A stretch of 23,318 bases of DNA, taken from a virus. The stretch spans positions 1 to 23,318 of the IMG/VR virus record IMGVR_UViG_3300034061_005615. One strand, written 5' to 3'. The notes beneath the pieces are model-generated. The model saw only the letters and a program-made list of their open reading frames with translations, had not been told where the DNA came from and ran no database searches. The translations under genes were made by a program, and so were the position numbers. Below, in pieces: positions 164 to 17,287 of this stretch; positions within the stretch are counted from its first letter, which is position 1, and every line of letters begins with the position of its first letter.

Positions 164-649
164 TTATTTAATTTTTGTTCTTGCTACGTTAGAAATTAAA
201 CCACCCGCAATTGTTGCTGTACCAGCAGCCATAGCAATCGCCATTTGAATAATATCTTCAGCTCCAAGACCACCTGCCATTGGTATTGCCATGATTGCTC
301 CTGCAATTGCTCCAAGACCCATAGTAGTTAATTTTCTTCTTAAATACTCATTTCTACTGATGTCTTTTGGTTGAGCATCAGTATAATCTTTATATTCATA
401 TTCTTCGTTCAAACCACCCTCAAGTTCAGCTTCAACTTCTTGTGCCACATCAGGATTCTTTTCAAAAAATCTAACAAGTCTTCTAAAGTTTCTGTTATGT
501 GCAATTTCAGCAGGTACTTCCATTTTAGAAAAATCTGTTTCATCTTCCATTTCTCGTGAGTCTGCAACCCATTGTTCCTCATCTTCTTTGATGATTCTTC
601 TTACCAAGTTGATAAGTTCTGATTCTGTTAATCTTATAGTTTTTTTCAT
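164..649 (-). CDS. Leader-bearing membrane-helix protein, possible capsid cargo
   Basis: A 161-aa protein of no recognised family. Residues 1-22 hold the leader shared with four other proteins in the window (IRLTESELINLVRRIIKE), ending in IIKE, which fits the (I/L)xE cleavage rule of T4-type prohead proteases. Residues 23-95 are strongly acidic (runs of D and E). Residues about 111-155 are rich in Gly, Ala, Ile and Met and could form two membrane-spanning or hairpin-inserting helices (GLGAIAGAIMAIPMAGG, then a second around AIAMAAGTATIAGG), followed by a basic tail. The gene lies 26 bases after the CxxC-repeat gene and before a strong terminator. A packaged protein that inserts into membrane on injection would fit, but that is inference; a simple unknown structural protein is the alternative. 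Confidence 0.75.
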   Translation of the reverse strand: MKKTIRLTESELINLVRRIIKEDEEQWVADSREMEDETDFSKMEVPAEIAHNRNFRRLVRFFEKNPDVAQEVEAELEGGLNEEYEYKDYTDAQPKDISRNEYLRRKLTTMGLGAIAGAIMAIPMAGGLGAEDIIQMAIAMAAGTATIAGGLISNVARTKIK

Positions 650-675: not shown

Positions 676-1587
676 TTATACTTTAAAAACATCGCCAAAT
701 TTTACAAAAGGTTCGTCAAAATCTTCCATATTATATCTATCTTCCTCGTCAATATCATCCATATCACTATAATTTGCAACTGTTAATTCATATGTAAAAA
801 TCTTATCGTTCATATTTAATGCTTCATATTCTCTTAAAGTCATTTTGGTATTTTCAAACTTTAATATTTTAGAACCAACTACAACGATAGCCATGTAACC
901 AATTTCAAAATACTCTTCACTGGTTTCCTCAGTACCAGTACCATAACAATATTCGCACTCAGTTTGACCGTGTCCTCCACACTCACGACAGTCTTCTTCA
1001 CCATCACCTTCACAAGTTGAGCAATCGATTTCTCTTTCTCCGTCGCAATATCTACAATTTACTTTTCCTGAACCAACACATTCATCGCATTGAACTTCTA
1101 CCTCGTCACCTTCATCATCATATTCTTCAACTTTTCCGTCACCATCACAATCACCACAAGCTTCAGTACCTGAACCATCACAATCAAAACATTCTTCTTT
1201 ACCTGTCCCATCACAACTTCTACATTCGATTTGACCATCGCCATCACATGAATCACATCGATCTTCACCACTACCCCCACAATATGTACAATCAACCTCT
1301 TTTCTACTAGTGTCATCAAAAATTTCAATATCGTATTTATAAAGATTATTTATAATTTTAGAAAGAACCTCTACAGAAATGTCAGGTCTCATTATCATAA
1401 AATAGGTTGCAAAAATAGCCTTTATTCGTTGGTTGCCGTTTTGTAATTTAGAAAATAAGATACTCACTAAATGGTCACTCTCTGACAAGTACATTAAATT
1501 GTTCAAGGTTTTTTTACCACCTTCACTTTCAATATAGTTTTTGAAGGCTCTTGCAACTGATAGTATGGTTTTTGATTCTTGGTCCAT
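676..1587 (-). CDS. Protein with ten DnaJ-type CxxC zinc-knuckle repeats
   Basis: A 303-aa protein. The first 95 residues are helical with no J domain (no HPD motif). Residues 100-218 carry ten CxxC motifs, most in the DnaJ form CxxCxGxG, starting at residues 100, 111, 122, 133, 144, 167, 178, 189, 200 and 211. That is two blocks of five with a strict 11-residue period, separated by an acidic insert (DDEGDEVEVQ). DnaJ has four such motifs with unequal spacing, so this is an expanded, differently arranged zinc-binding module. The C-terminal 85 residues are acidic with a hydrophobic core segment (YMAIVVVGSKILKF). It is the second gene downstream of the dnaK group (separated by a terminator), so a co-chaperone or substrate-holding role is tempting but unproven. 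Its own terminator-flanked start suggests separate transcription. Confidence 0.85.
   Translation of the reverse strand: MDQESKTILSVARAFKNYIESEGGKKTLNNLMYLSESDHLVSILFSKLQNGNQRIKAIFATYFMIMRPDISVEVLSKIINNLYKYDIEIFDDTSRKEVDCTYCGGSGEDRCDSCDGDGQIECRSCDGTGKEECFDCDGSGTEACGDCDGDGKVEEYDDEGDEVEVQCDECVGSGKVNCRYCDGEREIDCSTCEGDGEEDCRECGGHGQTECEYCYGTGTEETSEEYFEIGYMAIVVVGSKILKFENTKMTLREYEALNMNDKIFTYELTVANYSDMDDIDEEDRYNMEDFDEPFVKFGDVFKV
934..1290 (-). repeat. 33-base periodic coding repeat (CxxCxGxG units)
   Basis: Ten coding units of 33 bases, in two blocks of five, each encoding one CxxC knuckle plus an acidic linker. The units are degenerate in DNA but periodic in protein, pointing to growth by tandem duplication. 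Confidence 0.85.
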
Positions 1588-2452: not shown

Positions 2453-4315
2453 TTATTTAACTTCTTCAAATTCAACATCGGCTGATTTATCTTCATTTTG
2501 TTCAGTTGTTTGTTCAGTTGTTTGTTCATATAATTTCTGACTAATTTTTTGGAAAACCGATGTTAATTCTTCCGTGTTCTTTTTTGAACTTTCAACATCT
2601 TTTTTATCATAAGCTGATTTCAGGTTGTCAAGTGCCAATTGAACTTCTTTTTTATCGTCATCTGATATTTTATCTTCCAAATCCTTCAAAGATTTTTCAG
2701 TTTGGAAAATGGTTGAGTCGGCCATGTTCAAGATTTCAACATCTTCTTTTAGTTTTTTGTCCGCTTCAGCGTTTACTTCGGCTTCTTGTTTCATTCTTTC
2801 AATATCTTCTTTAGATAAACCTGATGAAGACTCTATTCGAATGGACTGTTGTTTGTTGGTTCCTTTATCAATTGCTGACACATTAATAATTCCATTTGCA
2901 TCAATATCAAATGTTACTTCAATTTGTGGAACACCTCTCATTGCGGGTGGTAAACCATCTAAATGGAATCTACCAATTGTTTTATTGTCTTTTGCCATTG
3001 CTCGTTCACCTTGTAAGACATGGATTTCAACAGATGGTTGATTATCTACTGCCGTTGAGAATGTTTGTGATTTTTTAGTTGGGATCGTTGTGTTCGCATC
3101 AATTAATTTTGTCATAACACCACCCATAGTTTCAATTCCTAAAGACAATGGGGTTACATCCAACAATAACACATCTTTAACATCACCAGCTAAAACACCT
3201 CCTTGAATTGCAGCTCCCAAAGCAACCACCTCATCAGGATTAACACCTTTAGATGGTTCCTTACCAAAGAATTTCTTAACCGCTTCTTGAATTGCAGGAA
3301 TACGGGTTGTACCACCAACTAAAATAATTTCATCAATTTCACCTATTGTAAGATTTGCATTCGATATTGCAGTCTTACATGGTTCGATTGTTCTTTCTAC
3401 TAATTTTTCAACAAGTTGTTCAAATTTAGATTTACTGAGTGATCTGACCAAGTGTTTTGGAATACCGTCAACAGGCATTAAATACGGTAAATTAATTTCA
3501 GTTGAAGAAGTTGAAGATAGTTCTACCTTCGCCTTTTCAGCCGCCTCTTTCAATCTTTGTAACGCCATTGCATCTTTATTAAGATCAATTCCATTCTCAG
3601 CCTTAAACTCCTCAACCAACCAATCAATAATTGCCTGATCAAAATCATCACCACCTAAATGTGTGTCACCATCTGTTGACAAAACCTCGAACACTCCGTC
3701 ACCCAATTCTAATATTGACACATCATGTGTACCACCACCACAATCAAAAACGACAACTTTCATGTCTTTTGACATTTTATCTAAACCGTATGCTAATGCT
3801 GCTGCTGTTGGTTCATTAATAATTCTTCTTACTGTCAATCCTGCAATTTCACCAGCCTCTTTTGTAGCTTGTCTTTGAGCGTCGTTAAAATATGCCGGAA
3901 CTGTAATAACAGCTTCAGTAACTTTTTCACCTAAATAATCTTCCGCAGTTTGTTTCATCTTCTGAAGAACTATTGCGGAAATTTCTTGTGGTGAATATTT
4001 TCTACCTTCAATTTCAACTCTTGGTGAATTATTTTCATTTAAGATCTTGTATGCCACTTTTTTTAGTTCACCATTAGATTCATCAAAAGTGGATCCCATA
4101 AATCTTTTAATTGAAGAAATTGTTTTTTCAGGGTTAGTAACCGCTTGTCTTTTTGCAGGATCACCAACTTTTCTTTCACCGTCTTTTATAAATCCAATTA
4201 CAGATGGGGTTGTTCGTTTACCCTCGTTGTTTGTTATTACTACAGGTTCATTCCCTTCCATTACCGCCACACATGAATTTGTGGTTCCTAAATCAATTCC
4301 AATTATTTTTGCCAT
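2453..4315 (-). CDS. dnaK: Hsp70 chaperone DnaK, full length
   Basis: A 620-aa Hsp70 (E. coli DnaK is 638 aa). The ATPase domain opens with [14 protein letters not shown] (residues 5-18), keeps [11 protein letters not shown] (141-151), [11 protein letters not shown] (167-177), HLGGDDFD and VGGTTRIPA; the linker [19 protein letters not shown] leads to the substrate-binding domain ([32 protein letters not shown]) and a helical lid ending in DVEFEEVK, the usual Bacteroidota ending. The phosphate-2 loop reads DCGGGTHD (191-198) instead of the near-universal DLGGGTFD, an unusual double change beside the catalytic Thr196. A TTEQTTEQ stretch near the C-terminus comes from a 12-base repeat. Acquired from a host-like donor, it may help fold phage proteins or serve replication. 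No grpE or true dnaJ is visible here. Transcription probably starts at the promoter at 4364-4392 and continues into the lipoprotein gene. Confidence 0.97.
2500..2528. repeat. 12-base tandem repeat in the dnaK 3' end
   Basis: GTTCAGTTGTTT occurs twice in a row (2500-2511, 2512-2523) followed by GTTCA. In the coding direction it encodes the TTEQ repeats in the flexible DnaK tail, a site prone to slippage. Confidence 0.8.
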
Positions 4316-10522: not shown

Positions 10523-12388
10523 TTATTTTATTGTTCTTTTTATAGATCCGTCACTATAAATTTCAATAACAACTCCTGTGGTGTTTTCATTAACTTCTTG
10601 TCCTGCTAAGTTAATTCTTTTTATTACGGTAATTACTTTATCAGTATTATTGATCTGAATTGGCCCGTAAGTTTGATTCATCCCGTCTATATCATATTGT
10701 TTAAGACGATAATAATTGTATAATTGTTTTACATTTTGATCAATTAAATTGTATTTAATTTCTTGAGTGGAGTTTTGTGAAGCCTGAACTTCACCTATTG
10801 AATTCCATTCATGTCCATCTTCACTTTTTTCAACAATAAAATGACTGGTATTATGTTCAGTCGCAGTTGCCCATCTTATTAAATTATAATTACTTTCTTT
10901 ATTACCTTCAAGATATAATAACTCAATAGGTAATGCAGATATTCTTGACATTGCAACATCCCTACAACTTGATTGGATGTCACAATAAGCATTTGTGTTA
11001 ACATGAATAAATATTGTTCCTGTGGCGTTTGGTGTGAAATTAACAACTGCCGTTCCTGTTGCAAGAACCGTACCATTGTAAGTCCCTTGTCTAACCGTAA
11101 TCCAATCTGTTCCAACTGAAGAAGTTGCAACATAAGGTGTATTTGAAATTGCATTATACCATGTTGAGTATTCTCCAGCGTATTGACAATAAATAGATTC
11201 ATATGGTGCTCCACCTAACACAGGCATAAATTGAGCTCCATAATTTATTGTGTTTGTACATGGTCCTGGTGTTGGTGGATTAACACAATTTAAAGACACG
11301 GAAAACGCAGAGTTTGATGAATAACCATGAACTAAAATCCAATATGTTGTCCCATTAACCGAGTTCCAAGAGTATGATGCTGAAGTTCCCCCACAACCAG
11401 GTCCGTTATCATCATTACCACCAACACATGTAAGTGAATAACAGGTTCCTGAAAAAACAGAAATCTTACTATCCCATGCGGTAACACAAAGTGATGCCGT
11501 CATAATCTGTCCATTTCCTATTATCTTATACCAAACACCGGGATATGACTGAACAATACCACAAGACCCCAATTCTCCATAACCTGATGTTGTTGCATTA
11601 ACCGTAGTCCCTGCAATCGTCTGACCACAAGATATTGTTGTTGCATTACAAACTAAATCATTTGATGGTGGTGGTGGTGGTAAACAAGTTATACAAGAAA
11701 TAGATGATGTTCCGCAGTTCATAGCGGTACCACAAGTATTATTTGTGTTGTAATGAACGAAATATGTTCCTGAGGACGGACAAACCCAATTTAATGGGGC
11801 GTTTCCGCTGGCGACTACAGTACCATTAAATGTTCCTGATCTAACCGTTATGAATCCACCTAAATTGTAAGCTGATTGATATGTTTGTCCTGCAATACAA
11901 GAATAAATTGGACTATATTCTCCTTGAAATTGACAAGTACTAATGATTACAGTTGTTGGTGTTGATGGTGCGATTGCAGACCCATATAAAGTTGTATTAG
12001 TGCATGGACCTGCAACAGCTCCCGCACAACTTGCTAATACGGTTTGTCCTCCCGTAGTTGCGGTTCCAGCAACCGGTTGAATAGTATTGATTATGGTGGT
12101 TCCCGCACCATTGAGAACTCGTATGCGCATTTCTGTAGGATAAAGTCCTGCAGTGGTTCGGAATACTCTAATTGTTGACCCTACTGCCGCCATAAATGTA
12201 GAACTAGTAGGTCCGTACCCCACACAACTTAAATTAGATAAAACGGTTACACCATTAACAGAAACGGATACCGCTCCTCCATTCCAACCATCACCCCATG
12301 TGTCAGTTCGTTGAATAGTGTGAAGACATGATTGAGAAAATAAAAAAGATGAAAATAGGACAAAAAATACAATCAATATATTCTTCAT
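10523..12388 (-). CDS. Large secreted flavobacterial-type surface protein with T9SS-like C-terminus
   Basis: A 621-aa secreted protein from the ATG at 12386-12388, which yields a clean signal peptide (MKNILIVFFVLFSSFLFSQ). A start 23 codons upstream is open but would bury the signal. After it: a DTWGDGWNGG domain (about 25-130); two copies of a Cys-rich module of about 110 residues (GEYSPIY...FITVRSGTFNG...FVHYNTN and GEYSTWY...WITVRQGTYNG...FIHVNTN); between them a PPPPPSNDLVCNA linker and a beta-sandwich module with SKISVFSGTC and WILVHGY; then a fibronectin-like stretch (LIRWATATEHNTSHF) and a last segment, INLAGQEVNENTTGVVIEIY..., like short C-terminal signals on flavobacterial exported proteins. 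Such modules belong to host surface adhesins. In a phage it could be a moron changing the host surface, or a virion adhesin; a host-derived origin is likely. Confidence 0.88.
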   Translation of the reverse strand: MKNILIVFFVLFSSFLFSQSCLHTIQRTDTWGDGWNGGAVSVSVNGVTVLSNLSCVGYGPTSSTFMAAVGSTIRVFRTTAGLYPTEMRIRVLNGAGTTIINTIQPVAGTATTGGQTVLASCAGAVAGPCTNTTLYGSAIAPSTPTTVIISTCQFQGEYSPIYSCIAGQTYQSAYNLGGFITVRSGTFNGTVVASGNAPLNWVCPSSGTYFVHYNTNNTCGTAMNCGTSSISCITCLPPPPPSNDLVCNATTISCGQTIAGTTVNATTSGYGELGSCGIVQSYPGVWYKIIGNGQIMTASLCVTAWDSKISVFSGTCYSLTCVGGNDDNGPGCGGTSASYSWNSVNGTTYWILVHGYSSNSAFSVSLNCVNPPTPGPCTNTINYGAQFMPVLGGAPYESIYCQYAGEYSTWYNAISNTPYVATSSVGTDWITVRQGTYNGTVLATGTAVVNFTPNATGTIFIHVNTNAYCDIQSSCRDVAMSRISALPIELLYLEGNKESNYNLIRWATATEHNTSHFIVEKSEDGHEWNSIGEVQASQNSTQEIKYNLIDQNVKQLYNYYRLKQYDIDGMNQTYGPIQINNTDKVITVIKRINLAGQEVNENTTGVVIEIYSDGSIKRTIK

Positions 12389-12547
12389 AGTAAAAATAAA
12401 TAAAATAAAATTATTTACTCTCTTGAAGAATCTTTTTAGGAAACCCCCATATTCCACGGGCAGGTTGAGTTCACAAATAAATACTAATATAATTGAGATT
12501 AGTTGTTAATAGACCCCATATATTGAGCAAACTATAACTTTAGATTA
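12389..12547. other. Upstream region of the secreted protein
   Basis: About 160 bases without a gene if the 12388 start is right. On the minus strand it holds AGTATTTATTTG at about 12470-12481 and TTTATTTATTTTT just before the ATG, both promoter-like but not exact consensus matches. No terminator was found after the RlpA-like gene. Confidence 0.3.
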
Positions 12548-12940
12548 TTATTTAACAATTTTTACGGTATCAACAGGAATTAAAATTACAGGTATCACTC
12601 CTCTTTTAAGAAAATTTAATTTTTTTGCCGTTCCGTAACTTAGATCAATAATAAACTTAGAACTTTTTGGTAATCTATCATTCACCTTAACATAACAAAC
12701 TGAGTCATTAATTGTGTTAGTAACTTTTAAAATTGTTCCGAACTTGAGATACTTGTGGGCTGCGGTTAAACTATCGGCATAAAATCTTTCTCCTGAGGAT
12801 GTTAATCTTCCTGTCAAATGTTGGCCATAATAAGATGCGGTTCCTCTGTATTCGGGGGTTGTTAAAATAAACGATAATAATATTAAAGGTATAAAAACCA
12901 ATAGTTTATTTAAGATTCCAATTTTTGTATTTTGTTTCAA
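12548..12940 (-). CDS. RlpA-like double-psi beta-barrel protein
   Basis: A 130-aa exported protein. A hydrophobic signal or anchor spans residues 8-27 (ILNKLLVFIPLILLSFIL), followed by one RlpA-like barrel: GTASYYG (33-39), TGRLTSSGERF (43-53), LTAAHKYLKFGT (58-69), VKVNDRLP (84-91) and FIIDLS (96-101). The usual NDRGP is NDRLP here, but the catalytic-type Asp (NDR) is present. RlpA proteins bind denuded peptidoglycan and some are lytic transglycosylases; there is no SPOR domain, so this is the minimal form. In a phage it could loosen the cell wall during entry or lysis. It overlaps the zinc-protease gene by 35 bases. Confidence 0.85.
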   Translation of the reverse strand: MKQNTKIGILNKLLVFIPLILLSFILTTPEYRGTASYYGQHLTGRLTSSGERFYADSLTAAHKYLKFGTILKVTNTINDSVCYVKVNDRLPKSSKFIIDLSYGTAKKLNFLKRGVIPVILIPVDTVKIVK

Positions 12941-14156
12941 TTTTTCTTTTACCGTATTTTTTTTCCATGATTTGTTGGTGTAGATCCCAATTTAGAATTG
13001 ATTCACTAACTTGTTCGTCATCTTTAGCCATAGCATATAGTTTAGATATTTTCTTTAACATTTTGTTTGCAACATATTGAAATCTCTCAAATTCATTTTC
13101 AAAAAACTTGGTTGGGTTTTTTTGATATTTAATTGTTTGAGATAAAAACTTATTTCTAATCTTGTCTGTCTTTTCAAGTTGTTTGACTTTTTCTTCCGCA
13201 TTACTAGGCAACAACCCTAGTTGCGAACCAAATCTTAAAAAGTCATCCATAGCATGCTCCGTCATAATTGTAAACAATTCCATTCTGTTGTTTACTAAAT
13301 CAATATAAGTAATTTCCAACACTCTGTTTATTTTTTCATCAATAGTCATGTTTGATGGATCCTCATTAACATGTTCAATAAGTTTGTCTAATCTTTCTTC
13401 TTGTTCTTTTAACTGTGTAATAAAATCATCAAATGAAAAGTTTTTAATTTCTAACAACTCTGTATAAACTCTATTATTTTCTAAAAATTCTTTAAATTGT
13501 GATTTTGTAATATTTTTTCTTTTCATTGAGTAAGCAACCTCTGTTGGTCTAACAAGATTTTCAATCGCATGAATGTAATACATGTATCTGTAGAACACTC
13601 TATCAATTACCGGTATTCCAAGATTACCTCTTCTTTGTGTCGCCTGATAGTCAGCATCAGGTCCTATTAAACCAAATTGTTTTGACTGCTTATCGTATTT
13701 GTGTTTGATCTCATGAGCCAAAGATGAAACATGTTCATCTCTTTCCTCCTCCATTTTTTGAATCAGTTGTTCAGGTCTCCAATTTTCACCAACAGCAAAA
13801 GTTATACTGAGCTCCAAAGTTGTTGAAGGTTCTGTTTCTTTCATATAAACATCTCTATTAAATCCAAAACCACCTCCCATTCCCATAGAAATAATATCTA
13901 AGACACCTTCTTGGTCTTCAATTTCTTCAATATTAACTTTAAGTTCATATGAATCAATTTTGACTTTTTTCTTATCACCTAACTCAAATTCAATATCACC
14001 ATCAAATTCATATTCATCTTCGACACTATCTATTGATTTTATGTCTTTTTCAACAATATCGTATAACATGTCGGCGGCGTCCAAAATATTTTCAGGAACC
14101 CCTAAAGCTTCTGTAATTAATTTTAATTGATTTTCGGTGATAACAATATTTCTCAT
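12906..14156 (-). CDS. Predicted zinc metalloprotease with virion-type leader
   Basis: A 416-aa protein. Residues 1-16 (MRNIVITENQLKLITE) match the leader shared with four other proteins here and end in an (I/L)xE site. The core has LAHEIKHKYD (147-155), a HExxH zinc site at 148-152, and a downstream ENLVRPTEVAYS (199-210) whose Glu206 is the likely third zinc ligand, as in phage zincins with an RPxEixA motif. Between leader and core lies an acidic region (20-110), and after the core a long helical tail with KKISKLYAMAKDDEQV. Likely a peptidase acting on prohead or host proteins, perhaps carried in the capsid; the substrate is unknown. A CATATTTA box lies five bases before the ATG. Confidence 0.8.
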   Translation of the reverse strand: MRNIVITENQLKLITEALGVPENILDAADMLYDIVEKDIKSIDSVEDEYEFDGDIEFELGDKKKVKIDSYELKVNIEEIEDQEGVLDIISMGMGGGFGFNRDVYMKETEPSTTLELSITFAVGENWRPEQLIQKMEEERDEHVSSLAHEIKHKYDKQSKQFGLIGPDADYQATQRRGNLGIPVIDRVFYRYMYYIHAIENLVRPTEVAYSMKRKNITKSQFKEFLENNRVYTELLEIKNFSFDDFITQLKEQEERLDKLIEHVNEDPSNMTIDEKINRVLEITYIDLVNNRMELFTIMTEHAMDDFLRFGSQLGLLPSNAEEKVKQLEKTDKIRNKFLSQTIKYQKNPTKFFENEFERFQYVANKMLKKISKLYAMAKDDEQVSESILNWDLHQQIMEKKYGKRKIETKYKNWNLK

Positions 14157-15310: not shown

Positions 15311-15381
15311 AAAATTTAATCCATTGTCCATTGATAGAAGTCATCTTTTGTTACAGTTGGTTTTTGTATTACAACAGGAGC
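15306..15381 (-). repeat. 76-base exact direct repeat, copy 1
   Basis: Identical to 16151-16226. It covers the last codons of the first paralogue (ending FYQWTMD), its stop codon and about ten bases beyond. Third-position identity across this stretch contrasts with silent differences elsewhere in the paralogues, which suggests recent duplication or gene conversion. Confidence 0.9.
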
Positions 15382-16149
15382 ACCAACACCACTTGTACCT
15401 TGAGTTCCACTAGTTCCTTGTACTCCACTCGTTACTGAAGTACCTGCTTGATCGCTTGTTCCACTTCTTGGACATTTACCTGTATCGTCAATTGCCTTCA
15501 TTATTGTCTCAAAATCAAATGAGTATCTAGTTCCACTTGTTCCGGCAGCAAGAAATGTATTTTTTTTGTTTTCTTTTTTACATTTCCATCCAGATGCTTG
15601 ATAATCTTTCCAAGTTTTATGTCCACATGCTTTAGCCTTTTCTTTTTTTTCATCATCCGTTTTAGGTTTTACCACAACCTCAGGTTTTACCGTCTCAACA
15701 GCATTTAAACACAAGTTATCTAAGGACCTCATATTCTTAGCATCATATGTCCAATTTGTTTTTTTATAATCAAACTCATCTATTTTTGTATTTTGGACGG
15801 TATACATTCTTTTTGTCTTACAATTATAAACCACAAAAGCCTTATTATTAAGTCCGGAAGCACCAGCAGTAGAATTAAACATACCATACACATAATCAAT
15901 TCTTACTTGTCTATCTGTGACTAAAGAATTTTTTATATTTGGTGATGGTTTAAATGTTGTACCTCTATAAAGTCTAAGAGTGTAATCCTCGCTATTACTA
16001 CTTGATGGTTTAAAATCTGTATTAACTTTTAGAGAAAATGTTTGTTCTTCATTCAATACTTGATAATTATTTTCTTTTAAAATAGCTTGTTTGTGTAAGC
16101 CCAATATTCTTTGGACTTCCCCTTCTTTTAAATTTAATTTATTTCTCAT
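15316..16149 (-). CDS. Leader-bearing paralogue with Gly-Thr-Ser repeats, copy 1
   Basis: A 277-aa protein from the ATG at 16147-16149 (MRNKLNLKEGEVQRIL...). The frame is open nine codons further upstream inside the neighbouring gene's tail, but this ATG matches the paralogue's start exactly. Layout: leader (1-36) with (I/L)xE sites at AILKE and VLNE; a beta-rich region (FKPSSSNSEDYTLRLYRGT...); conserved AFVVYNCKTK and LDNLC; AKACGHKTWKDYQASGWKCKK; FDFETIMKAIDDTGKCPR; a G-x-y repeat (units GTS, GVQ, GTQ); and the tail PTVTKDDFYQWTMD. Conserved Cys residues suggest disulphides or a metal site. Probably a virion or capsid-internal protein of unknown role. It is separated from its twin by 11 bases. 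Confidence 0.8.
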   Translation of the reverse strand: MRNKLNLKEGEVQRILGLHKQAILKENNYQVLNEEQTFSLKVNTDFKPSSSNSEDYTLRLYRGTTFKPSPNIKNSLVTDRQVRIDYVYGMFNSTAGASGLNNKAFVVYNCKTKRMYTVQNTKIDEFDYKKTNWTYDAKNMRSLDNLCLNAVETVKPEVVVKPKTDDEKKEKAKACGHKTWKDYQASGWKCKKENKKNTFLAAGTSGTRYSFDFETIMKAIDDTGKCPRSGTSDQAGTSVTSGVQGTSGTQGTSGVGAPVVIQKPTVTKDDFYQWTMD

Positions 16150-16150
16150 T

Positions 16151-16226
16151 TTTTTAAAATTTAATCCATTGTCCATTGATAGAAGTCATCTTTTGTTACA
16201 GTTGGTTTTTGTATTACAACAGGAGC
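16151..16226 (-). repeat. 76-base exact direct repeat, copy 2
   Basis: Second copy of the repeat at 15306-15381, offset 845 bases, covering the end of the upstream paralogue and the start-proximal gap before copy 1. Confidence 0.9.
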
Positions 16227-17009
16227 CCCAACATTACTTGTACCTTGAGTTCCTTGTACTCCACTCGTTCCTGAAGTACCTGCTTGATCGCTTGTTCCAC
16301 TTCTTGGGCATTTACCTGTATCGTCAATGGCTTTCATAATTGTTTCGAAATCGAATGTGTATCTGTTACTACTAGTCCCATTTCTTAAATCTCCAGTTTC
16401 TCCTCCTTGGTTTTCTTTTTTACATTTCCATCCTGATGCTTGATAATCTTCCCAAGTTTTATGTCCACATGCTTTAGCCTTTTTAATTTTTTCATCATCT
16501 GTTAGTTTCTTCTGTTCTGGTTTGATAACCTCTTGATTTTTAACAACCGATTCTTCACACAATTTATCTAAAGATTGCATACTTCCTCCAGTTTTCCAAG
16601 TAGCCTTTTTATTAGAGTTAATGTCATAGTCTTCTTTAGCTCCTTCATTTGTAGATCCAATTAAATAAATATTTTTTGTTTTACAGTTATATACAACAAA
16701 AGCCCTATTATCTTCATAACTTGTAGAAAGGTATCCAGAAGCATAAGAAGGAAAATTTGCAAGAACTTTTCTTGTGGATACTAATGAATTTTTAATTTTT
16801 GTGGATACTTTGAACTTAGTTCCTTGGTATAACCTTATTTTGTTAGAAGACGGATTCGTTTCGCTAGGTTTGAATTTTACATCTGATTTTAAAGTAAAAG
16901 TACTTTCCTCATTCAAAATGTTTTTACCACTCTCTTTTAATATAGCATTTTTATGTAATGATAAGATTCTTTGGACTTCTCCTTCTTTTAAATTTAATTT
17001 ATTTCTCAT
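16161..17009 (-). CDS. Leader-bearing paralogue with Gly-Thr-Ser repeats, copy 2
   Basis: A 282-aa twin of the protein at 15316-16149. The leader is the same up to EGEVQRIL, then SLHKNAILKE and ILNE provide the (I/L)xE sites. The shared blocks AFVVYNCKTK, AKACGHKTWEDYQASGWKCKK, FDFETIMKAIDDTGKCPRSGTSD and the C-terminal tail are nearly unchanged, whereas the middle (residues about 40-150) has drifted. The Gly-rich repeat is shorter by one unit and carries an SNVG variant. It is preceded by the peptidoglycan-binding leader protein (11-base gap), so the three are probably one transcript starting at 17305-17312. Function unknown; a duplicated virion decoration or cargo protein is the best guess. 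Confidence 0.82.
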   Translation of the reverse strand: MRNKLNLKEGEVQRILSLHKNAILKESGKNILNEESTFTLKSDVKFKPSETNPSSNKIRLYQGTKFKVSTKIKNSLVSTRKVLANFPSYASGYLSTSYEDNRAFVVYNCKTKNIYLIGSTNEGAKEDYDINSNKKATWKTGGSMQSLDKLCEESVVKNQEVIKPEQKKLTDDEKIKKAKACGHKTWEDYQASGWKCKKENQGGETGDLRNGTSSNRYTFDFETIMKAIDDTGKCPRSGTSDQAGTSGTSGVQGTQGTSNVGAPVVIQKPTVTKDDFYQWTMD

Positions 17010-17020
17010 TTTTATATTTT

Positions 17021-17287
17021 TTACAATTGTGATCCTTCATCAGATTTAATTGTATCAAAACGGTATGCGGTATATGTTTCAATAGCATTTTTTGTTCTGT
17101 CTCCAGCAACACCATCAACACCATCCTTATTAGGCCCTGATTTACCAAGTTGCGCATTAAAACAATCCTTTAACCTTTGTTGAATTTGCATAACTTCACT
17201 TTTTGATTGCTCATTTAAAATTTCTCTTTCAATAATAATATTTTGGAGTTTTTTATATTGTTTCTCACTTAAGATTAATTTTTTCAT
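17021..17287 (-). CDS. Leader-bearing peptidoglycan-binding-like protein
   Basis: An 88-aa protein. Residues 1-26 form the shared leader (KLILSEKQYKKLQNIIIE) with (I/L)xE sites at IIIE and ILNE. Residues about 30-78 resemble a PG_binding_1 domain: VMQIQQRLKDCFNAQLG, then DGVDGVAGDRTKNAIETYTAYRF, matching the family's lQ..L, dG..G..T..A and final helix, although the closing helix lacks the usual FQ. The domain binds peptidoglycan in lysins and wall hydrolases; here no catalytic part is attached. It opens the transcription unit after the terminator at 17321-17349. A capsid-borne wall-binding protein or a short fragment of a longer lysin are both possible. Confidence 0.72.
   Translation of the reverse strand: MKKLILSEKQYKKLQNIIIEREILNEQSKSEVMQIQQRLKDCFNAQLGKSGPNKDGVDGVAGDRTKNAIETYTAYRFDTIKSDEGSQL

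Follow-up and report, generated by a model that had tools for sequence, protein, structure and literature searches.

How ten CxxC motifs at an even 11-residue spacing might be organized into metal sites, and what a protein built in this way might do for a virus that also encodes DnaK, are the questions raised by a gene in the window, by which we mean the whole 23.3-kb virus record analysed here. Genes for DnaK, for a glutamine synthetase of the GlnII type and for an RNA ligase are present in the window; the gene in question, and its product, are referred to below as the ladder gene and the ladder protein.

The cysteine array of the ladder protein

The ladder gene is an ORF on the minus strand (676-1587; ATG start, stop codon at 676-678) with conserved homologues, and it encodes a protein of 303 residues. 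The CxxC motifs start at positions 100, 111, 122, 133 and 144, and again at 167, 178, 189, 200 and 211, so that the positions and the exact 11-residue period given in the first-pass annotation are confirmed; the array occupies residues 100-218 (window 934-1290), and the start positions of mirrored partners always add up to 314. All 20 of the cysteines in the protein lie within these motifs, most of which take the form CxxCxGxG. When the array's own 119 residues were shuffled 20,000 times, the longest run of 11-spaced CxxC motifs was three, and a run of five, of which the real array contains two, did not occur once. Moreover, across 20 aligned relatives having five motifs on either side of the hinge (n = 5), none of the 20 cysteines varies. 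The shuffling and the conservation together exclude a chance origin.

In Pfam searches, the ladder protein gave only sub-threshold matches, to PF00684 (DnaJ_CXXCXGXG; 29.1 bits, E 1.2e-6, cut-off 32.7) and to PF25436 (BSD2_CRD; 24.9 bits, cut-off 27). There was no match to the J domain (PF00226), in agreement with the earlier reading of the protein as lacking one, and PHROGs and NCBIfam yielded no useful family.

The protein can be divided into six segments, all encoded on the minus strand. AlphaFold2 predicts an N-terminal five-helix domain (residues 1-80; 1348-1587), followed by a long strand into the ladder (residues 82-99; 1291-1344) whose predicted partner is formed by residues 219-237. 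The left rail (residues 100-151; 1135-1290), delineated by sequence and conservation, bears motifs 1-5 at 11-residue spacing. The acidic hinge (residues 152-166; 1090-1134) is predicted in both AlphaFold2 runs to turn between strands 152-156 and 162-166. It is followed by the right rail (residues 167-218; 934-1089), which bears motifs 6-10 and is assigned from the mirror statistics, the strand register and the trees described below, and by a C-terminal alpha/beta domain (residues 219-303; 679-933), which AlphaFold2 packs at the base of the ladder.

Relatives in phages, bacteria and archaea

Relatives were gathered by pattern scans for 11-spaced CxxC motifs with subsequent manual filtering; a first, loose scan of viral sequences returned many low-complexity false arrays, and CxxCxGxG was required as a filter. 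This gave 246 distinct arrays, 125 from phages and 121 from bacteria or archaea. At E values up to 0.01, PF00684 matches 47 of 53 relatives, and some relatives score far above the window protein against PF25436 (best E 2.1e-10).

The phage proteins fall mainly into two families. Family A, to which the window protein belongs, comprises proteins of 270-330 residues with about 100 residues either side of the array, and family B comprises proteins of about 480-580 residues with the array at the extreme C-terminus. Some phages have several ladder genes per genome. The body domains of the phage ladder proteins matched no family in Pfam; a C-terminal amidoligase domain (PF12224, E 2e-11) is present in a phage ladder with four motifs per side (L150), and the C-terminal domain of a 5+5 phage ladder (L220) resembles it by eye. 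The isolated Cellulophaga phage Calle_2 encodes the family-B N-terminal domain with no ladder attached (L396, 2183-3508), which indicates that the N-terminal part and the ladder are separable.

The cellular ladders come from Bacteroidota, Spirochaetes, Planctomycetota, Proteobacteria, Asgard archaea, one haloarchaeon and others. The archaeal examples (L233, L237, L260, L287, L289 and L306 from Asgard archaea, and L252 from the haloarchaeon) include 7+7 arrays with mirrored spacings of 16-17 residues. Four Bacteroidota proteins (L275, L338, L339 and L340) have 6-7 rungs each, the outer spacings, of 13, recurring symmetrically at the two ends, and begin with a lipoprotein signal (lipobox); they are apparently exported zinc ladders.

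The N-termini of the family-B proteins (L019, L132, L163, L171, L192, L228, L379 and others) nearly all begin M..(K)Y.(D/E)F(L/I/V)..ES, followed by LLLE(A/S). We take this leader to resemble a T4-type capsid targeting sequence that includes a prohead-protease site, the cleavage motif being (L/I)xE (PMC9026906). Judging from these sequences, family-B ladder proteins may be packaged in the virion. Within the window itself, five otherwise unrelated proteins (164-649, 12906-14156, 15316-16176, 16161-17009 and 17021-17287) have a similar N-terminal stretch (MKKTIRLTESELINLVRRIIKE, MRNIVITENQLKLITEAL, MRNKLNLKEGEVQRIL.LHK.AILKE, MKKLILSEKQYKKLQNIIIE), which is possibly a targeting leader. Those at 15316-16176 and 16161-17009 are adjacent paralogues: their N-termini are almost identical, both contain low-complexity TSGTSG tracts, and they share the C-terminal sequence GAPVVIQKPTVTKDDFYQWTMD. 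Additionally, the 644-residue product of 10523-12457, which is unusual for this neighbourhood, looks secreted, contains repeated domains and gave no match in Pfam.

Symmetry and mirrored spacings

Most of the arrays share one layout, in which n motifs are followed by a hinge and a further n motifs, with n ranging from 3 to 9. Among non-redundant complete arrays having one unique largest spacing, the motif numbers on the two sides of the hinge are equal in 61 of 66 from phages and in 56 of 79 from cells, against 8.2 and 7.1, respectively, expected for a randomly placed hinge. The total number of motifs is likewise mostly even (even:odd 67:3 in phages, or 67/70, and 77:21 in cells, or 77/98). 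The phage exceptions are mostly arrays whose final motif is cut by a stop codon or whose hinge does not exceed the repeat, and the other 23 of these 79 cellular arrays were scored as asymmetric by a simple parser.

Spacings of at least 13 residues are matched in mirror register in 32 of 45 cases (2,000 shuffles gave a mean of 9 and a maximum of 18), with the qualification that many of the mirrored cellular cases are related Bacteroidota proteins, which lowers the effective number of independent cases; visibly different proteins among them are L252, L260, L272, L306, L330 and L340. The pattern is illustrated by the spacings of L281 (13,13,11,11,11,11,11, then a hinge of 15, then 11,11,11,11,11,13,13), of L260 (16,11,11,11,11,17, hinge 14, 16,11,11,10,11,17) and of L340 (13,20,11,11,10, hinge 22, 11,11,11,22,13). 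The mirror rule holds across phages, bacteria and archaea, and the motif spacings of the phage-encoded DnaJs of ladder phages are mirror-symmetric too (13 or 14, 26, 14).

An n + n layout would also be expected of a tandem duplication, in which two parallel n-motif zinc domains are joined by a linker instead of forming one hairpin. Such an arrangement is scarcely credible here: in parallel register, only 4 of 73 long spacings are matched, as against 32 of 45 in the mirrored one; an odd n leaves one motif unpaired in each domain; and the predicted strand pairing (see below) crosses the hinge. Parallel pairing of duplicated domains was rejected on the spacing register, and the odd values of n (3, 5 and 7) exclude pairing between neighbours inside one block.

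Rungs are gained and lost in pairs

Trees were built from the flanking sequence alone (71 rows for family A, 25 for family B). On these, the number of rungs changes at least 5 times within family A (n = 4 or 5) and about 11 times within family B (n = 3 to 7), and yet symmetry is kept in nearly every present-day array of both families, from which it follows that motifs were gained or lost in pairs. This is the behaviour expected if each metal site takes one motif from each rail. Coupling between residues of facing motifs was also considered and set aside as too weak to serve as independent proof of the pairing: for n = 5 it is suggestive (296 of 20,000 random matchings were as good), and for n = 4 it is absent (4,375 of 20,000).

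Predicted structure and pairing of the motifs

AlphaFold2, a method that takes no account of bound metal, gave a model with a mean pLDDT of 83.8 from a 53-row alignment. The N-terminal domain consists of helices 3-22, 28-37, 39-45, 51-66 and 72-79 (pLDDT mostly about 90 or more, and the same in a second run), and its predicted five-helix fold differs from that of a J domain. The output lists strands and not their partners, and pairing was therefore read from a common register: one antiparallel register accommodates 82-99 with 219-237, 108-110 with 208-210, 130-132 with 186-188, 141-143 with 175-177, and 152-156 with 162-166. Confidence in this run is low for the middle rungs, where pLDDT is 49-63 (near residues 111-130 and 181-210). 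In the second run, for which only the 20 n = 5 relatives were used, the hinge and the base are reproduced and the region between them is unreliable, with pLDDT values of 25-41 over much of the array; strands 82-99 and 219-237 recur, slightly broken, the hinge turn is present, although its pLDDT drops from 88 to 52-59, and the C-terminal domain is well defined in both (75-96 and 81-95, respectively). A profile search of PDB sequences placed DnaJ and BSD2 first, and the top Foldseek matches were to DnaJA2 (E 1.6e-3) and to BSD2 (PDB code 6ekb), the latter ranking highest of the solved structures when the score is normalized by target (TM 0.71).

The equal motif counts on the two sides, the mirrored spacings and the AlphaFold2 register together indicate that the pairing rule of DnaJ, first motif with last and second with second-last around a hinge, has been extended from two rungs to five, and we infer the same nested pairing for the window protein as is characteristic of PF00684. 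The chain would leave the helical N-terminal body via the long strand and run outwards along five CxxCxGxG knuckles; it would then be turned by the acidic hinge and return, antiparallel, along five more knuckles into the C-terminal domain. Facing knuckles (1/10, 2/9, 3/8, 4/7 and 5/6) would each contribute two cysteines to one Cys4 site, the metal most likely being Zn2+, and the three-residue linkers would form short antiparallel strands between the rungs. The outcome would be a stiff arm holding up to five metal ions. As a purely structural reading, we regard it as very probable that the window protein is a J-domain-less zinc hairpin of the DnaJ/BSD2 type lengthened to five rungs.

Comparison with known zinc hairpins

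The closest structural parallels are BSD2 and ZnJ2, the chloroplast Rubisco-assembly chaperones (PF25436; PDB codes 6ekb, 6ekc and 8ilb), which, like the window protein, have CxxCxGxG knuckles and no J domain. The motif spacings of BSD2, as counted in the profile-search alignment, are 11, 24 and 11, such that the exact 11-residue spacing occurs on both sides of the hinge, as in the window protein; an exact 11-residue period is therefore compatible with the DnaJ fold. Both this spacing and the Foldseek match place the window protein with the J-domain-less zinc hairpins of the BSD2 type, although BSD2 is a small free-standing domain of two rungs, whereas the window protein has five, together with N- and C-terminal domains. 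This bears on the first-pass annotation, which had taken the even spacing to imply either a solenoid or some architecture other than the crosswise pairing of DnaJ. The elongated, rod-like shape and the capacity for up to five zinc ions are probably right; the kind of architecture is not new, since BSD2 is already 11-spaced and the symmetry, the mirroring and the predicted register point to a lengthened form of the nested pairing that DnaJ and BSD2 have in common.

The central zinc domain of DnaJ (PF00684; E. coli DnaJ, PDB code 1exk; phage DnaJs L385 and L386) shares the knuckle and the nested pairing, but it has two rungs, longer linkers and an attached J domain, and is near-neutral or slightly basic, whereas the window ladder is strongly acidic and lacks a J domain. 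The norm for PF00684 is four motifs and two zinc sites, as against ten motifs in the window protein. Of the other proteins with related knuckles, the DNA polymerases of HMO-2011-type phages that contain part of a DnaJ domain (PMC9038755) likewise have CxxCxGxG without a J domain, but only two motifs, within a polymerase; and Anti-TRAP (PF15777; PDB codes 2bx9 and 3lcz), a weak match to a single stretch, has a DnaJ-like zinc knuckle but is an oligomeric protein of about 53 residues without a long array. Proteins of uncultured phages and of moraphages that are annotated as 'DnaJ cysteine-rich', a name carried by the BFVD match A0A6J5L6F2, probably belong in part to the same family as the ladder. 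We found no description of a form extended beyond two rungs in the literature searched, which lacked most subscription journals.

Gene neighbourhood

The gene was described in the first-pass annotation as lying near dnaK, which is true of the window (dnaK, 2453-4315, is 0.9 kb away) but is not general among ladder phages. Between the two genes lie two small ORFs and a hairpin resembling a terminator. The hairpin is an inverted repeat (1614-1637), recognized by consensus match only, which is situated upstream of the ladder gene and parts that gene from the upstream genes containing dnaK. Directly downstream, a 161-residue ORF (164-649, minus strand) is probably co-transcribed with the ladder gene, which it also neighbours in relatives, for example, L001, L138 and L140. 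A near-identical end of the gene was found on a 78.6-kb contig (L001). Comparison of the window with known phages by megablast found nothing. The gene mix of the window fits the moraphages, a recently described group of large phages from aquatic habitats that infect Bacteroidota and carry genes for DnaK and glutamine synthetase (PMC12619734), an assignment that we infer from dnaK, glutamine synthetase and Bacteroidota hosts as common features. The same paper treats DnaJ solely as a heat-shock chaperone, and cysteines and zinc are unmentioned (PMC12619734).

Function

The function that we favour, tentatively, is that of a DnaK-independent holding or assembly factor, in which the anionic arm would bind a partner. 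We are led to this by the closest functional precedent, the J-domain-less ZnJ2/BSD2 proteins, whose clients, unfolded or being assembled, are held independently of DnaK: ZnJ2 has four motifs, lacks a J domain, binds zinc and acts as a holding factor that shows no synergy with DnaK (PMC5818400). Its holding activity persisted after loss of the cysteines (PMC5818400), and the metal need not, therefore, be the active part. Taken as a whole, a five-rung ladder with a DnaK-independent holding or assembly role is a likely explanation of the gene.

Charge supplies the argument for the main rival, which we consider somewhat unlikely, namely, that the protein is a nucleic-acid mimic or decoy, an anionic phage rod to which basic proteins (of the nucleoid, of restriction or of other defences) bind in place of DNA or RNA. 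The median net charge per motif is -2.5 for phage arrays, as against +0.6 for cellular ones; the window array, at -2.9 per motif (-29 in 119 residues), makes the ladder the most acidic protein encoded in the window, and each ZnCys4 site, if metallated, would contribute -2 more. The DnaJ zinc domains encoded by ladder phages mostly carry +0.25 to +0.75 per motif. However, no known DNA-mimic family matches, the acidity may instead aid solubility or metal uptake, and the cellular ladders have the fold without the charge. It is distinctly unlikely that phages have made the adjustable, mirror-built hairpin into a stiff anionic rod of 3-7 rungs that serves as a ruler or as an imitation of nucleic acid, the number of rungs being set by selection on length; in that event, host proteins that bind DNA or act in defence might be disarmed by such rods, and those of family B might enter the cell within the virion.

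The DnaJ zinc domain contributes to substrate transfer, and a detached version of it might serve the phage DnaK as a co-chaperone. Such a partnership with the neighbouring DnaK, as was implied in the first-pass annotation, appears improbable. In addition to the window, dnaK lies near the ladder in L148, L172, L128, L154, L199 and L231 (about seven loci), but HSP70 was found in only 8 of the 28 ladder phage records searched, some of which may be fragments, and in G002, G014 and G022 the two genes are tens of kilobases apart. Furthermore, 18 of the 28 records encode J-domain proteins, several of which are full DnaJs with a four-motif zinc domain of their own, and the J-domain protein and HSP70 genes are far from the ladder in the ladder phages checked; the ladder protein lacks a J domain, as does ZnJ2, which acts without DnaK synergy (PMC5818400). 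An explanation in terms of a J-domain/DnaK operon was rejected on the absence of a J domain, the hairpin between the genes and a gene order that is not kept. Two further alternatives concern the cysteines themselves. With up to five sites per chain, and several ladder genes in some phages, the array could be a metal store that buffers zinc or another thiophilic metal, or starves host enzymes of it, the hairpin being incidental; this is very unlikely, as a defined fold is implied both by the mirror symmetry and by the conservation of the body domains, and metallothionein-like stores need no mirrored spacing. A disulphide-bonded or disordered cysteine-rich tail might account for the low confidence of the middle of the array in AlphaFold2, and DnaJ zinc domains can act on disulphides, but the window protein has no apparent export signal, its cysteines are all invariant among the 20 n = 5 relatives, and its sequence and fold match the zinc-binding domains of DnaJ and BSD2, making this highly improbable.

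On the reading preferred here, a lengthened hairpin of the DnaJ/BSD2 type, DnaJ, with its two-zinc hairpin, would seem to be the shortest of the common forms of an architecture that is open-ended and changes its rungs two motifs at a time, much as the stem of an RNA hairpin is lengthened. If this is confirmed, the metal pairing could be read from the number and spacing of the motifs alone in hundreds of proteins of phages, bacteria and archaea that are so far unannotated, the 'DnaJ' labels on such genes in large phages would need correcting, and the strongly acidic phage rods would constitute a concrete, testable class of phage factor.
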